Source: Nitrososphaerota archaeon (GTDB lineage Archaea; Thermoproteota; Nitrososphaeria; Nitrososphaerales; Nitrosopumilaceae). Taken from it: 37,444 nt of DNA. How positions within the stretch are numbered: the first letter of the stretch is position 1; each line of letters opens with the position of its first letter. Positions 15,354 through 28,395 of the stretch are shown here, one piece after another. The notes beneath the pieces are model-generated. The model saw only the letters and a list, made by a program, of their open reading frames with translations. It was not told the origin of the DNA and searched no databases. The stretch is from assembly GCA_013288545.1 (NCBI GenBank), contig JABDBR010000011.1:3759-41202 (forward strand). Reading direction: 5' to 3'. The translations under genes and the position numbers were made by a program.

Positions 15354-16010
15354 ATGTTTGAATACAAGGGAATAAAGATAAAATGGCTTGGTCATGATTC
15401 TTTTAGCCTTACTAGCAATGTCAAGATAATAATCGATCCGTACAAAATATCAAAACAGGAAAAGGCAGACTTGATTCTGATTTCACACAATCATTTTGAT
15501 CATCTAAGTGTGGATGATCTAAAAAATGTCTCAACAAAAGATACAACCATTGTTGCTGCAAATGAATGCATTGACATGTTGACGGGGTTTACATTTAAAG
15601 AAAAAATTGGTATCTTACCAGGACAAGAGAAAACTGTACGAGGGATCAAGATCAAGTCCATTCCAGCATATAATCTGGACAAGATAAATCCTCAAACAAA
15701 AAAACCATTTCATCCCAAAGAAGACAATAAGGTGGGCTTCTTGTTTGAATTAAACGGTATTACAATATATCATACTGGTGACACTGATCTAATTCCAGAC
15801 ATGTCTGATCTAAAACCTGATATTGCTCTAGTACCTGTCAGCGGAACCTATGTGATGACAGCACAGGAAGCAGCCAAAGCCATAGAAAAGATCAAGCCAA
15901 AGATTGCAATCCCAATGCATTATGGAGTAATTGTTGGTAGTGAGAAAGATGCTCATGACTTTAAACAACTGGTAAAATCCTGTGAGGTTCAAATACTCAC
16001 AAAAGAGTAA
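15354..16010 (+). CDS. Metallo-beta-lactamase-fold hydrolase (UlaG/UPF0173-like)
   Basis: The 218-residue cytosolic metal-dependent hydrolase begins IKWLGHDSFSL, a typical UPF0173 opening. It then has the HxHxDH motif as HNHFDH (H45, H47, D49, H50), the later ligand segment YHTGDTD and a C-terminal PMHYG. Relatives include UlaG-type lactonases/phosphodiesterases and proteins of unknown substrate, so the reaction is not assigned. The gene follows the PIN gene by 26 nt and precedes the oligosaccharyltransferase fusion by 30 nt, so it probably belongs to the same run of plus-strand genes; no strong promoter was seen between them. Confidence 0.85.
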   Translation: MFEYKGIKIKWLGHDSFSLTSNVKIIIDPYKISKQEKADLILISHNHFDHLSVDDLKNVSTKDTTIVAANECIDMLTGFTFKEKIGILPGQEKTVRGIKIKSIPAYNLDKINPQTKKPFHPKEDNKVGFLFELNGITIYHTGDTDLIPDMSDLKPDIALVPVSGTYVMTAQEAAKAIEKIKPKIAIPMHYGVIVGSEKDAHDFKQLVKSCEVQILTKE

Positions 16011-16040: not shown

Positions 16041-18836
16041 TTGATACAAGATGCCAAATTATTCACGGTAAGAAAATTCAACTTTCATTTGAGGCATCTG
16101 CTTGTAATTGGAATTCTTATAATTTCATTTTCCATTTCTGCACTGGTTAGATCTCAAGCTGCTGACTATGGATTTCAACTAAACGAGTTTGATCCATTCT
16201 TCAATTACAGAGCAACACAGTACTTGCTAGATAATGGACTAAATGCATATGTTCATTGGCATGATGATATGAGTTGGTATCCAACTGGAAGAGATGTTTT
16301 TGCCACCGCCCAAGTACCATTGCATGTAACTGATGCAGCTTTATACAAAATATTTGGCGGTGGAATGAGTCTTTATGACTTTACAATAATTTTTCCAGTA
16401 GTTTTCGGTTCCATGACTACAATAGTCATATTTGCTCTAGTGCGTGTCTTGGCTGGTACTAGTGCGGGACTTTTTGCCTCGCTTTTCTTTGCCTTGTCAC
16501 CGCCTATAATAGTCAGAGGTACAATTGGATGGTTCAAGTCTGAACCTCTTGGTTTGTTTTATGGACTATTAGGAGTCTACCTGTTTCTTAGCGGGTTAAA
16601 ATCCGAAAACAAGAAAATTGCCATATCCAAACTGGTAGGTGGCGGATTCTTTCTTGCTGTAGGTTTTGCATCTTGGGGAGGAATAGAGTTCTTCCTTCTT
16701 CCTCTAGGATTGTTCTTTATTGCTCTACCTTTCATACGAAAAGATCACAAGTTCTTGCTTTGGGCAGTTCCATTGTTTGTAGCAGTAACTATGATAATAT
16801 CTGGAGGTCTCTTTGCAAGACCTGGTCCAACTTTTGTATTTGGTATGAGAGGATTTGCAATGATTGGACCTGCCATATTGCTTGTCATAATAATCCTCAT
16901 TCAAAAATATAGTAAAGAACAGCACCGTATCCGTAATAGTCTGATAGCTTTAGCTGCCTTGATAATAATTGGAGTTGTGGTATTATCTGCAGGTCCTTTC
17001 CATTCGGCAAGTTTTCGTTATCTGAATGCAGTAAACCCATTCCTGACCTCTGAGGATCCCCTTGTTGACTCTGTTGCAGAGCATGCCACTCCAACACTTG
17101 CACAAAACTTTAGTTATTTCTCAGTGCTAATGTTGTTTGCGGGCCTTGGAATCTGGCTTGTGTTTAGAAAAAGAAATGGAGATCCAAATGCATCAAGATT
17201 TTCTATTAAAAATGAAATGATTGTATTTGCTCTGATCATAGGCATAGTTGGAGCATATTCCGGTTCTACTTTCTCTAGATTGGAATTGCTTACGGCAACT
17301 TCTGTAATCATACTTTCATCTATAGGACTTGCTATACTTGTTGCCGATATTTTCAAACGCGAAAATAAGGAGGTCAAATTCATTGAATCATCAAAGAAAG
17401 GAACCCACACAAAGAAGGAAATTCCTACAAAGAAGACAAGTGAATTGCTTGGAAAAGTTTCAAAAATAGCATTTGTCGCAGTAATTGTGGCATTATTGCT
17501 GGTTCCAACGCTATATCCAGTAAACGCAAACTGGATATCAATAACAAAATCCCCGCCTACAATTCTTAATGGGGGATCAAACTTTGCCATATCAACTAGT
17601 GACTGGCCAGATGCTCTAAACTGGATCAAAAATAATACTCCAAAAGATTCCGTGGTTGCCTCCTGGTGGGATTATGGATATTGGGTACAGACTCTGGGAG
17701 AAAGAAAGACGCTTGCCGATAATTCCACTGTTGATACAAATATTATTGCCAACATTGCACGAATGCTCCTGGCCTCCCCTGATGAGGCATGGAAGATGCT
17801 AAACAAGGCAGGTGCAAACTATGTTTTAGTTTATGTTGTAGGCCAAAAGTTTGTTTCAAACGGCCAAGATCTTTACATACTCGGAGGCGGAGGAGACGAA
17901 AGCAAGAAACAGTGGTTCATGAAAATAGGGGGCCTTGATTCAACCAAATTCCTCCAAGATGATTCCTTTACACCAACTGATTATTTCTGGAAGAACACTC
18001 TGCTTGGACAAATGTTTCCGTTTACTCCATTAACATACTATGATCCAAACACCCACAATGAATCGCCTACCTATACCACAGGATTTACTGCAATTTACTC
18101 TAAAACTATCAAGTATTCTGAAAATGGCACAGGCCCACTACGTCTAGTGTATGCATCTCAAAGCTTGGACAGGAAAGACTCTGGTGTATTTTCTGGTGTA
18201 TTGATTTATCAAGTAAATCCCAACTACCAACCTCAGACAGGAACAACTTCTCCTGTTAGTACACCACAAAATAATAACACAAGTACAACTCCCGTAAAAC
18301 CTATAACCACTACAACTAGTGGCGGAAACATTGCTGTGATCAATACAAAGTTTGGAGATATAAAATTCAAATTATTTGATAATGTGGCACCAAAAACAAC
18401 AGAGAACTTTATCAAACTTGCTAATTCTGGTTTCTATGACAAAACTGTATTTCACAGGATAATGCCAGGATTTGTAATACAAGGTGGTGATCCAAATACG
18501 ATAAAAGGTGATAGAAGCACATGGGGCCTTGGAGATGCAGGATATACAATTCCACCAGAATTTAGTTCTAGTCTAAATTTCACAAAGTACATGGTAGGTA
18601 TGGCACGTGGCTCTGATGTTAACAGTGGAAGCTCTCAATTCTTTATTACAGTTGGCGATGCACCTTGGTTGAACAACCAGTATACTCTATTTGGCGAGGT
18701 TGTATCGGGCCAAGATGTTGTTGATAAGATAGCGTCACTAAAAACTGATCCAACCACTAATCAACCAGTTGATGCTGAAGCCGCACGTGTAACGACAGTT
18801 ACTGTTGAACCATCATCTAATAGTACATCAAAATAA
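16041..18836 (+). CDS. Oligosaccharyltransferase STT3/AglB fused to a C-terminal cyclophilin
   Basis: The 931-residue protein starts at TTG. The N-terminal part is an STT3/AglB oligosaccharyltransferase: one membrane helix, then the catalytic acidic motif NEFDPFFNYR (E49, D51), about 12 more membrane helices up to residue 495, and a globular domain with the acceptor-binding WWDYGYW motif (W542-W548). A Thr/Pro/Asn-rich linker (about 733-760) follows. Residues about 761-920 are a complete cyclophilin peptidyl-prolyl isomerase with FHRIMPGFVIQGGD (R806, F811, Q814) and APWLNNQYTLFG (W876). STT3 topology places the C-terminus outside the cell. The enzyme would therefore transfer glycans to N-x-S/T sequons and isomerise proline bonds on the same emerging protein. 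One continuous frame supports a real fusion. Confidence 0.9.
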   Translation: MIQDAKLFTVRKFNFHLRHLLVIGILIISFSISALVRSQAADYGFQLNEFDPFFNYRATQYLLDNGLNAYVHWHDDMSWYPTGRDVFATAQVPLHVTDAALYKIFGGGMSLYDFTIIFPVVFGSMTTIVIFALVRVLAGTSAGLFASLFFALSPPIIVRGTIGWFKSEPLGLFYGLLGVYLFLSGLKSENKKIAISKLVGGGFFLAVGFASWGGIEFFLLPLGLFFIALPFIRKDHKFLLWAVPLFVAVTMIISGGLFARPGPTFVFGMRGFAMIGPAILLVIIILIQKYSKEQHRIRNSLIALAALIIIGVVVLSAGPFHSASFRYLNAVNPFLTSEDPLVDSVAEHATPTLAQNFSYFSVLMLFAGLGIWLVFRKRNGDPNASRFSIKNEMIVFALIIGIVGAYSGSTFSRLELLTATSVIILSSIGLAILVADIFKRENKEVKFIESSKKGTHTKKEIPTKKTSELLGKVSKIAFVAVIVALLLVPTLYPVNANWISITKSPPTILNGGSNFAISTSDWPDALNWIKNNTPKDSVVASWWDYGYWVQTLGERKTLADNSTVDTNIIANIARMLLASPDEAWKMLNKAGANYVLVYVVGQKFVSNGQDLYILGGGGDESKKQWFMKIGGLDSTKFLQDDSFTPTDYFWKNTLLGQMFPFTPLTYYDPNTHNESPTYTTGFTAIYSKTIKYSENGTGPLRLVYASQSLDRKDSGVFSGVLIYQVNPNYQPQTGTTSPVSTPQNNNTSTTPVKPITTTTSGGNIAVINTKFGDIKFKLFDNVAPKTTENFIKLANSGFYDKTVFHRIMPGFVIQGGDPNTIKGDRSTWGLGDAGYTIPPEFSSSLNFTKYMVGMARGSDVNSGSSQFFITVGDAPWLNNQYTLFGEVVSGQDVVDKIASLKTDPTTNQPVDAEAARVTTVTVEPSSNSTSK

Positions 18837-19003: not shown

Positions 19004-19801
19004 TCAACCTTCTCTTGTCTTCTTTGACTCTTCTCTTGTGAACTTGAAGGTACCGCCCTTTTTCTCTATTGCATCCTGAACAGAGGAGAGAATTGGCTTG
19101 AGTTCCTTCTCGGCCTCCTTGAAGTTTGGAGCAGTAAGGGTAATGCGGTATTTGGGAGCTCCAATGTATGTCACAGAGATCTCCTTCTTGTTTGCTGTTG
19201 AATCAATTAATGCAGCCTTGATTATCTCAATGCCGTTTGATTTGTTGCATGTTAACTCAAAAATCCCGCGTATCTCAACGTGAGGAACTTGAATCTTTGA
19301 GCCAAGCTCTGCAATTACAGTAAGTGCCTTTGGAGGAATACTGAGGTTATCTAGAATGGATATGCCTTTGGCTGAAACCGCGGAAAATGCATCATAAACT
19401 GAGCCGAATTTCTCTACTAGGACATTTTCTAATTTTCCCATCTCAGACTCGGACAAGCTGATGCGAGATTTTAGATTCTCAATTAATGCTTCTTCTTTTT
19501 CACCACGTTTTATCTCTAAAAGTTTCTTCTTTTTTTGATCAGATGATACCTGCTTTAATGACAAGTCTATTTCGGATCTTCGTGGGTCTACACGTTTTAC
19601 AAGTAAGACTTTTTTTTCTCCCACCTTGAGAAATTTTGCTACGTTTCGAATCCAGCCAGTAGCAATTTCTGAAACATGCAAGAATCCCTGGATCTTGTTG
19701 AACTCATCAAGGGAGACATATGCTCCTTGATCCACTATCCTTGATACAGTAGCAATCACAATCTCTCCCACTTCTGGAAAATCTTGGACAGTTGTTGTCA
19801 T
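19004..19801 (-). CDS. eif2a: Translation initiation factor aIF2 alpha subunit
   Basis: Binds aIF2-gamma and initiator tRNA. From the ATG at 19801 the protein has 265 residues; a TTG three codons upstream (19810) is also open. A TATA box 25 nt before the ATG fits a leaderless mRNA starting at the ATG. Residues about 5-80 form an S1 domain (VGEIVIATVSRIVDQGAYVSL and GFLHVSEIA, with the RRSEIDLSLK end), followed by the helical domain and the alpha/beta C-terminal domain (ISVTYIGAPKYRITLTAPNF). Length is normal for the family. nop10 follows after 1 nt. Confidence 0.95.
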   Translation of the reverse strand: MTTTVQDFPEVGEIVIATVSRIVDQGAYVSLDEFNKIQGFLHVSEIATGWIRNVAKFLKVGEKKVLLVKRVDPRRSEIDLSLKQVSSDQKKKKLLEIKRGEKEEALIENLKSRISLSESEMGKLENVLVEKFGSVYDAFSAVSAKGISILDNLSIPPKALTVIAELGSKIQVPHVEIRGIFELTCNKSNGIEIIKAALIDSTANKKEISVTYIGAPKYRITLTAPNFKEAEKELKPILSSVQDAIEKKGGTFKFTREESKKTREG

Positions 19802-19820
19802 GGCTTTCAAATTTATTGTA

Positions 19821-27144: not shown

Positions 27145-28382
27145 AAGCGAGAAATCTCACATGCTTTAGTAGTGGGATGAAAGCGAACTTCAAATCAACA
27201 AAAATACTATTATATGAAAAATACATAAAGAACAGAAAACAAAATGAGGAACTACAAATTCAGACTCTATCCAACGGTATCACAAGAAGATGTATTGGTG
27301 AACAATATCAATGTGTGCAGGTGGGTTTACAACAAATTCATTGAATATTCAAAGAAAGGAACTGTTTCCCAGTTTGATTTGCAGGACTATCTGATGGAAT
27401 TGAAACAACAGGAATCTTGGCTATACAATTACAATGCAAAGATGTTACAAATGGTATGTGTACAGATGTCTGGATCTCAAAAAGCATTAAAATCATTGAA
27501 AGAAAATGGCAGAAAAACTGGCAGTCTAAGGTTTGCAAGATATGGGGAATATCGAACTTTTATCTACAACCAGTCAGGTTACAAACTAGAAAATGGTAAA
27601 CTAATACTTTCAAAAATAGGAGATATCAAGATCAAACAACACAGGGAAATTCAAGGTAAAATCAAACAGGTAATAATAACTAAAACCAAGTCAGGCAAGT
27701 GGTATTGCTCTGTAACTTGTGAATTAGACAAGACACAGCTTCCAATAATCAATTTCAAAAAGGTGGTTGGAATAGATGTAGGTATCAAGAACTTTACATA
27801 CGATTCTGATGGATTCGTAGCACCAAACCCACTTAATCTAAAAAAATTATTGAAACCATTGATAAGAGTGCAAAAAAAGATGGCAAGGAGAAAGTATGGA
27901 TCAAACAACTATCTCAAGGCAAAGAAGTGGTATCAAATAATGCATGAAAGAATAGCAAGCAGGAGAAAAGACTTTCATCATAAACTTTCAACAATATACG
28001 CAAGAAAATATGATGTAATAGTTGTTGAAAAACTAAACCTGACTGGCATGGTGAAGAACCATCACCTAGCGAAAAGTATCCTGGATTCTGGATGGAATGA
28101 TTTCCTACAAAAATTGGAATACAAAACCAAGATGTTGATCAAGGTTGATCCAAGAAATACCTCAGTTGAATGTAGTGAATGCAAAACCAAAGTTCCAAAG
28201 ACTCTGGCAATCAGGATACATAGTTGTCCTCAGTGTGGGTTGGAAATAGACAGAGATCATAACGCCAGCATAAATATTTTGCATAAAGTAATACCGTCGG
28301 AAAGACGGGAATCAACGCCTGTAGAGATCTCAAAGAGGTCAGTGACTCAGGAAGCTCATGTCTTTAGACATAGGCAGTTCAC
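27145..28382 (+). mobile_element. IS200/IS605-group element carrying only tnpB (IS1341-like)
   Basis: The left end is marked by TTGAT at 27140-27144, then an imperfect hairpin at 27154-27178 (ATCTCAC paired with GTGGGAT, loop TTTA). The right end has a hairpin at 28358-28371 (ATGTC-TTTA-GACAT) and closes with AGTTCAC at about 28376-28382. There are no inverted terminal repeats or target duplication, as expected for this group. No tnpA is present, so the copy depends on a transposase elsewhere. It sits between two divergent genes. The exact ends are inferred from hairpins and from the TTGAT motif known for ISDra2-type elements. Confidence 0.7.
27154..27178 (+). repeat. Left-end subterminal hairpin of the IS element
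   Basis: Stem ATCTCAC/GTGGGAT with a G-U pair, one bulged A, an inner stem and a TTTA loop. The same TTTA loop occurs in the right-end hairpin, as expected for structures recognised by one TnpA. Confidence 0.55.
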
Positions 28383-28395
28383 TTTGTCGGCATAA
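27244..28395 (+). CDS. tnpB: TnpB RNA-guided nuclease
   Basis: Relative of Cas12 that uses an omega-RNA from the element's right end to cut DNA. The 383-residue protein has an N-terminal helix-turn-helix/WED region (RNYKFRLYPTVSQEDVLVNN) and all three RuvC catalytic residues: D178 in VVGIDVGIKNF, E262 in VVEKLNLTGM and D338 in DRDHNASINI. A zinc finger (C310, C313, C328, C331; CSEC and CPQC) lies between the last two. The ORF appears intact and probably active. The last codons (LSA and stop) lie beyond the inferred right end, so they are supplied by flanking DNA. An ATTATATGA element at about 27207-27215 could be its promoter. Confidence 0.93.
   Translation: MRNYKFRLYPTVSQEDVLVNNINVCRWVYNKFIEYSKKGTVSQFDLQDYLMELKQQESWLYNYNAKMLQMVCVQMSGSQKALKSLKENGRKTGSLRFARYGEYRTFIYNQSGYKLENGKLILSKIGDIKIKQHREIQGKIKQVIITKTKSGKWYCSVTCELDKTQLPIINFKKVVGIDVGIKNFTYDSDGFVAPNPLNLKKLLKPLIRVQKKMARRKYGSNNYLKAKKWYQIMHERIASRRKDFHHKLSTIYARKYDVIVVEKLNLTGMVKNHHLAKSILDSGWNDFLQKLEYKTKMLIKVDPRNTSVECSECKTKVPKTLAIRIHSCPQCGLEIDRDHNASINILHKVIPSERRESTPVEISKRSVTQEAHVFRHRQFTLSA

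Follow-up and report, generated by a model that had tools for sequence, protein, structure and literature searches.

AglB joined to a cyclophilin in ammonia-oxidizing archaea

Oligosaccharyltransferases of the AglB/STT3 family (GT66) are known from the solved structures of Archaeoglobus AglB (3waj/7e9s), human STT3A (6s7o) and yeast Stt3 (8agc), and cyclophilins of the PPWD1/PPIL/CWC27 type from 2a2n, 1zkc and 4r3e. In Nitrososphaera viennensis, which has a single aglB, glycosylation has been shown experimentally (PMC12153357). AglB has been detected in the proteomes of this species (NSAF 0.031-0.044) and of Nitrosopumilus piranensis (0.002-0.007), values that are not directly comparable across species (PMC12153357 Table 1). 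The glycoproteomics paper makes no mention of cyclophilin.

Prolyl isomerases have been described at comparable sites. NmPin of Nitrosopumilus maritimus, a small membrane-associated protein of the parvulin fold, has been proposed to help surface (S-layer) proteins fold (PMC4922055). Eukaryotes, as the earlier note on this DNA pointed out, use separate proteins for glycosylation and prolyl isomerisation; the polypeptides are indeed separate, but the contrast is incomplete, given that FKBP11, a prolyl-isomerase-family protein of the FKBP fold, binds the human STT3A-Sec61 translocon in a ribosome-dependent manner, beside STT3 on the extracytoplasmic side (PMC12804085; PDB 9n9j). A survey of archaeal prolyl isomerases found 122 cyclophilins, 106 of which were kept after curation, and mentions multi-domain proteins with an N-terminal cyclophilin only (PMC8530231).

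Here we analyse a gene of an ammonia-oxidizing archaeon in which AglB is followed, in the same frame, by a cyclophilin. Both domains belong to well-known families. We found no published description of an AglB-cyclophilin fusion in the open-access papers searched, although automatic annotations may already list the two together. The reading that we favour, with moderate confidence, is that of a surface AglB carrying a tethered prolyl isomerase that would serve exported proteins, the whole deriving from a single ancient fusion.

The fusion gene and its locus

The window, by which we mean the whole stretch of 37,444 nucleotides that was analysed, comes from the genus that holds the Candidatus Nitrosotalea records (best identity 92%, L153). 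Its aglB-cyclophilin fusion gene (16041..18836, + strand) consists of one open frame, 931 codons long, with a TTG start, 0 internal stops and an in-frame TAA 18 bases 5' of the start. Pfam matches on the product are to STT3 (residues 46-484, E 9e-27), to the STT3/PglB/AglB core (536-586) and to Pro_isomerase (766-910, E 7e-46), while NCBIfam yields sub-threshold matches only, to archaeal STT3 and bacterial peptidylprolyl isomerases. The STT3/AglB part (residues 20-735) thus leads through a disordered Ser/Thr/Asn linker into a complete cyclophilin (763-925); among solved structures, the N-terminal part is closest in sequence to human STT3A/B and the C-terminal part to PPWD1/CYP71/PPIL-type cyclophilins. 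The earlier note had proposed STT3 and cyclophilin in one frame, with coordinates and motifs that proved right (NEFDPFFNYR, WWDYGYW, R806, F811 and Q814 were all located), and its proposal is borne out by the open frame without stops, by both Pfam domains and by the recurrence of the architecture in dozens of genomes, well beyond what chance would produce.

The source genome is a draft (1.39 Mb, 57 contigs, 85% complete), which would be compatible with an assembly artefact or with an accidental read-through joining two genes. However, the identical architecture is present in at least 7 single-contig genomes (G040, G079, G109, G132, G136, G070 and G093), and it recurs across several families. 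An assembly artefact is thereby excluded, and the explanation as a whole is left with a negligible probability. We take G132, which is fused, to be Nitrososphaera viennensis, and G109 presumably represents N. gargensis. Relatives with separate domains had also been suggested as a sign of an artefact; some relatives are indeed unfused, but not all of them are, and in those the fusion was lost secondarily. The gene product is a true fusion protein, encoded in a single frame that recurs in independent single-contig genomes, with selection acting on both parts. The join between AglB and cyclophilin is real, ancient and maintained by selection in many ammonia-oxidizing archaea.

The neighbours of the gene are conserved as well. 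A hydrolase of the metallo-beta-lactamase fold (PRK00685-like; 15354..16010, + strand) lies upstream, with the eIF2 gamma gene further upstream beyond it, and the eIF2 alpha gene (19004..19810, - strand) lies downstream; the hydrolase and eIF2 alpha, both identified by profile matches, are conserved beside aglB, the latter in fused and unfused Nitrosopumilaceae. In many Nitrosopumilaceae, AglB genes lie between eIF2 gamma and eIF2 alpha whether or not they are fused, which identifies the unfused genes as orthologues occupying the same locus. Elsewhere in the window, an IS605-type TnpB/OrfB gene (27244-28395, + strand) adjoins a cobalamin biosynthesis cluster and a gene for a DnaJ-domain protein.

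Predicted architecture of the protein

The membrane part of STT3/AglB (residues 21-499; 16101..17537, + strand), delineated by Pfam STT3, hydropathy and AlphaFold2 helices, ends with a last hydrophobic segment at residues 476-499 and is followed by the extracytoplasmic catalytic domain (505-730; 17553..18230, + strand), recognised from sequence, Pfam, the AlphaFold2 model and structural matches. The family motifs are retained in sequence and alignment. The first acidic motif, NEFDPFFNYR (residues 48-57; 16182..16211, + strand), lies in the first external loop, and its NEFDP (48-52) is invariant and aligned with HEFDP of STT3A. SVAE (344-347; 17070..17081, + strand), the equivalent of the SVSE/TIXE motif, is invariant, as is the catalytic WWDYGYW (542-548; 17664-17684) of the C-terminal domain among aligned AglBs, and D619-E-S-K622, the DxxK/DK motif, is invariant or nearly so. 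At the position of the second acidic motif (DxD/DxE), where human STT3A has D-N-E, the alignment places K166-S167-E168 (16536..16544, + strand). In nearly all of the Nitrososphaerota AglBs that we examined, both fused and unfused, the final acid is kept and Lys takes the place of the first. The gene is the sole STT3 in its genome. As one component of the favoured reading, in whose parts taken jointly we have moderate confidence, the best explanation of these sequence features is that the product would be the cell's only AglB-type N-oligosaccharyltransferase.

A multi-span membrane domain followed by an external C-terminal domain is indicated by Pfam STT3, by hydropathy and by the match of the AlphaFold2 model to STT3/AglB structures, with sidedness assigned by homology. 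Hydrophobic segments span residues 20-499; beyond residue 505, the maximal mean hydropathy over 19 residues is 0.73, and no transmembrane-like segment was found by hydropathy. Because no such segment follows the catalytic domain, the cyclophilin and the WWDYG domain should share one side of the membrane, the outer one in this family. The extracellular C-terminus anticipated by the earlier note is therefore supported by prediction. The AlphaFold2 model, built from 28 aligned sequences (mean pLDDT 74, pTM 0.58), has both domains folded; pLDDT exceeds 80 over most of the cyclophilin and falls below 50 in the linker. Foldseek matches the model to STT3/AglB structures of human, yeast and archaeal origin, and also, separately, to cyclophilins.

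The linker (residues ~733-761; 18237..18323, + strand), rich in Thr, Ser, Pro and Asn, had been described as Thr/Pro/Asn-rich from the letters alone and is disordered in the model. It holds no Met codon in the window sequence, which makes an internal start within it unlikely. Across the window's genus (24 sequences), the median dN/dS is 0.59 for the linker and 0.089, 0.095 and 0.094 for the STT3 membrane part, the STT3 soluble part and the cyclophilin, respectively; synonymous distances are high, which makes the ratios approximate, yet the linker clearly differs from the other parts. The cyclophilin is under purifying selection equal to that on STT3, and the linker is not. N-glycosylation sequons occur in the linker (the overlapping N745 and N746), in the cyclophilin (N846) and in the C-terminal tail (N927). 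A total of 126 sequons were counted across 87 linkers, versus 86 expected from shuffling, an excess that is only suggestive because related rows are not independent. Judging from the sequence, the tether between AglB and the cyclophilin is probably flexible and glycosylated.

An exposed, disordered and fast-evolving linker could also be a site of processing, with the precursor cut into an ordinary AglB and a cyclophilin that is released or associated with the S-layer, so that the fusion would be an export route only. Comparison of the linkers reveals no conserved cleavage motif, however, and sequons in the linker and in the C-terminal tail fit a protein retained at the surface. We consider such cleavage very unlikely and favour a cyclophilin that stays tethered to AglB.

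The cyclophilin itself (residues 763-925; 18327..18815, + strand) has a complete fold: the Pfam Pro_isomerase match covers positions 3-149 of 159, and the domain is matched by PDB 2a2n with a TMt of 0.87. R806, F811 and Q814 lie in the stretch FHRIMPGFVIQGGD (18450-18491, + strand) and, together with A855 and F868, correspond to Arg55, Phe60, Gln63, Ala101 and Phe113 of human CypA, a set that hardly varies across two alignments, of 22 and 28 sequences. The equivalents of Arg55, Phe60, Ala101, Gln111 and Leu122 (R806, F811, A855, Q866 and L877) are invariant, Gln63 is kept in all aligned rows but one (L098, with H), and Phe113 is nearly invariant. Relative to CypA, Met61 is replaced by Val, Asn102 by Arg and His126 by Tyr. 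The active-site set that had been listed for this domain, R806, F811, Q814 and W876, is present in full and its first three members are conserved, but W876 corresponds to Trp121 of CypA, a cyclosporin contact rather than a catalytic residue, and W occupies this position in just 9 of 22 sequences in the alignment, most relatives having Phe or another residue there. Since the active-site equivalents are conserved, the domain is likely an active isomerase.

FKBP11, the closest parallel in function, suggests another role. At the STT3A translocon this protein, whose nominal catalytic site is buried, has been argued to act as an adaptor and not as an isomerase of the nascent chain (PMC12804085), and the fused cyclophilin might likewise bind a client or partner without being a working isomerase. 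The loss of the active-site Gln in L098 and the variable Trp position would be consistent with such a role; on the other hand, a pure binding module would not need the full set of Arg55, Phe60, Gln63, Ala101 and Phe113 equivalents, which are nearly invariant across families. This makes an adaptor doubtful, next after the anchor alternative discussed below, and a catalytically competent tethered isomerase remains the reading that we prefer.

Distribution, origin and losses of the fusion

The whole protein was compared with 400 genomes of the class and then with 46 representative genomes, followed by frame-by-frame domain mapping. The earlier note had proposed a search of relatives for a C-terminal Pro_isomerase on STT3, and the domain turned out to be widespread in the ammonia oxidizers of Nitrososphaerota: the fusion is found in most Nitrososphaeraceae genera, about half of the sampled Nitrosopumilaceae genera and two deeper ammonia-oxidizer families. 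Three states can be distinguished. Fused frames of ~890-990 aa occur in Nitrosotalea and relatives, Nitrosotenuis, other Nitrosopumilaceae genera, nearly all Nitrososphaeraceae (including Nitrososphaera and Nitrosocosmicus) and two deeper genomes, namely, G137, from the family of Nitrosocaldus (inferred name), and G112. Unfused frames, mostly of 710-760 aa, occur in Nitrosopumilus, Nitrosarchaeum, Nitrosopelagicus, Cenarchaeum-like genera, Nitrosopolaris and all non-ammonia-oxidizing families. Neither protein is found in the Nitrosocaldus-like genus g23 (six genomes, one of them single-contig) and in g15, a genus with 0.8-Mb genomes. Of the two species with AglB proteome values, N. viennensis belongs to a fused genus, which lends support to the fusion being expressed, and N. 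piranensis to an unfused one.

Several observations accompany this survey. No STT3/AglB was detected in G067, G077, G080, G099, G164 and G360 (g23) or in G124, G147 and G289 (g15), and no cyclophilin was found in these two genera where checked, so that both functions are apparently missing together. Nitrosopumilaceae-type AglB contigs in genomes labelled Chitinophagaceae and SAR202 bacterium (L183 and L221) are probably mis-binned, and two differing unfused AglBs per bin, in G374 (two loci) and in a Nitrosopumilus MAG (L184/L185), reflect either duplication or a mixed bin. Outside the class, within the phylum, no AglB fusion was seen among 37 cyclophilin-bearing genomes, in which nearly all cyclophilin frames are at most 290 aa long and three reach ~600 aa (G451, G531 and G632). 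The two that were read, those of G531 and G632 (L243 and L244, family f47), are solute-binding-like extracellular proteins of ~540-600 aa with a C-terminal cyclophilin; G451 is of the same genus. No relatives of the fusion were found on viral contigs.

In an AglB tree from which the cyclophilin columns were excluded, rooted on the unfused non-ammonia-oxidizing families, all fused proteins fall within one ammonia-oxidizer clade (100/100), where they are paraphyletic, in agreement with an earlier quick tree. Forcing the fused proteins into one clade is rejected (AU p 5e-26), as is forcing the unfused ammonia-oxidizer forms into one clade (p 3e-5); with the paraphyly of the fused forms, this rejects independent recent fusions for AglB. 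The tree supports one gain at or near the base of the ammonia oxidizers, followed by at least 3 or 4 losses, as the simplest history. The lineages inferred to have lost the fusion are Nitrosopumilus, Nitrosarchaeum, Nitrosopelagicus and Nitrosopolaris. In Nitrosopolaris-like Nitrososphaeraceae (L067/L229 and L200), the unfused AglB ends in a Ser/Thr/Pro/Asn linker of ~80 aa with the cyclophilin absent, and these tails are stumps left by the loss. Decayed cyclophilin pieces with stops lie 3' of AglB in G317, and L165 has a frame break within the cyclophilin that may be a sequencing error.

The cyclophilin tree places the fused domains of Nitrosopumilaceae and Nitrososphaeraceae together, with weak support, and those of G112 and G137 (families f2/f5) near the membrane-anchored cyclophilins of sister families. 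In the best tree the f2/f5 domains stand apart from the other fused ones, which would allow for two origins or for the replacement of a domain, although the AU test does not reject placing all fused domains in one clade (p 0.32). In sister families that lack the fusion, the cyclophilin is a separate protein in which a hydrophobic anchor at the N-terminus and a short Ser/Thr/Asn linker precede the domain; it is a plausible precursor of the fused domain. Most likely, the gene for such a separate anchored cyclophilin would have been placed behind aglB once, with AglB taking over the role of the anchor. In a Nitrosocosmicus-like genome (G070), a second, secreted-looking protein of 484 aa (L132) ends in a cyclophilin whose place in the tree is with the AglB-fused domain of its own genus (100/99) and which was apparently copied along with an Asn-rich linker; a similar secreted-looking protein of 453 aa with a C-terminal cyclophilin, in Nitrosocosmicus-like G100 (L239), is not among the sequences of the tree.

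Possible function and relation to known systems

In the favoured reading, AglB would transfer glycan to the sequons of chains emerging from the Sec channel, and the tethered cyclophilin would isomerise prolyl bonds either in those chains or in others being exported nearby, such as S-layer and other surface proteins, with tethering raising the local isomerase concentration at the exit site. Isomerase activity, action on the clients of glycosylation and, with them, a coupling of N-glycosylation to prolyl isomerisation form the part of this reading that we infer; S-layer proteins and other glycoproteins are probably among those served. A more specific version, which we regard as tentative, is that the cyclophilin acts on prolyl bonds located around sequons, or after them, at the Sec exit and so controls site occupancy and surface-protein folding, an ancestral trait that separate secreted isomerases would have replaced in Nitrosopumilus-type lineages. 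Coupling is not essential for AglB, because the fusion has been lost several times.

Against the favoured reading, we counted that many Nitrosopumilaceae, fused and unfused, also carry a separate secreted cyclophilin. A separate cyclophilin in a mostly secreted-looking frame of 394-923 aa is present in 17/17 unfused versus 8/15 fused Nitrosopumilaceae sampled (Fisher p 0.002, relatedness ignored). This supports a general need for a surface isomerase. Strict complementarity between the fusion and the separate protein was rejected, as 8 of the 15 fused Nitrosopumilaceae have both and some Nitrososphaeraceae have neither; G195 and G248 are exceptions without detectable cyclophilin. The window genome has two cyclophilins, the fused domain and a stand-alone protein of 165 aa. 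One of the secreted-looking frames (L152:893-3661; G037, Nitrosopumilaceae g8) encodes 923 aa and combines a cyclophilin with a glucose/sorbosone dehydrogenase and a DsbA-like thioredoxin domain.

Since this pattern of separate cyclophilins fits a tether as well as it fits a coupled machine, the main rival is that AglB is a mere membrane anchor for an extracellular cyclophilin, with uncoupled activities, an old anchor having been replaced by chance and the join kept because the cell needs one surface cyclophilin. The simple transmembrane helix that anchors the same domain in sister families and the long, variable, disordered linker are in keeping with it. Nevertheless, the join has persisted throughout a very deep clade and both of its parts are under purifying selection; among the fused lineages examined, none was seen to have reverted to a simple anchor. 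We therefore judge mere anchoring rather unlikely, although a more serious contender than an adaptor or a cleaved precursor, and retain the tethered isomerase serving exported proteins as our reading.

If so, the fusion would be a natural covalent link of N-glycosylation to prolyl isomerisation, steps run by separate proteins in other organisms, and may bear on S-layer construction in ammonia oxidizers. It spans at least 4 ammonia-oxidizer families, several of them cultured, and its repeated natural losses serve as controls, so that the positioning of a folding enzyme at the oligosaccharyltransferase is directly testable in a simple system.

The protein shares with AglB/STT3 the fold, NEFDP, WWDYG, the SVSE-like and DxxK motifs and the organization as a single catalytic subunit, and differs from the matched solved structures in its C-terminal cyclophilin on a disordered linker and in the K-S-E form of the second acidic motif. 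With PPWD1/PPIL/CWC27-type cyclophilins it has in common the complete fold and the Arg/Phe/Gln active site; unlike them, the fused domain is predicted to be extracytoplasmic, is joined to a glycosyltransferase and carries the substitutions at positions 61, 102 and 126 and the variable Trp121 described above. The membrane-anchored cyclophilins of non-ammonia-oxidizing Nitrososphaerales (L135, L137, L138 and others) are up to ~54% identical to the fused domain, likewise preceded by a Ser/Thr/Asn linker and predicted to lie outside, but have one N-terminal transmembrane helix instead of AglB. NmPin is a further archaeal prolyl isomerase with a proposed role at the surface, but it is a separate parvulin from Nitrosopumilus, one of the lineages in which the join between AglB and cyclophilin was lost. 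FKBP11 at the human STT3A translocon differs in fold, in being a separate protein whose binding depends on the ribosome and in its proposed non-catalytic role, whereas the archaeal link is covalent and made by a cyclophilin; in placing a prolyl-isomerase-family protein beside STT3 on the extracytoplasmic side, the fusion is its archaeal parallel.
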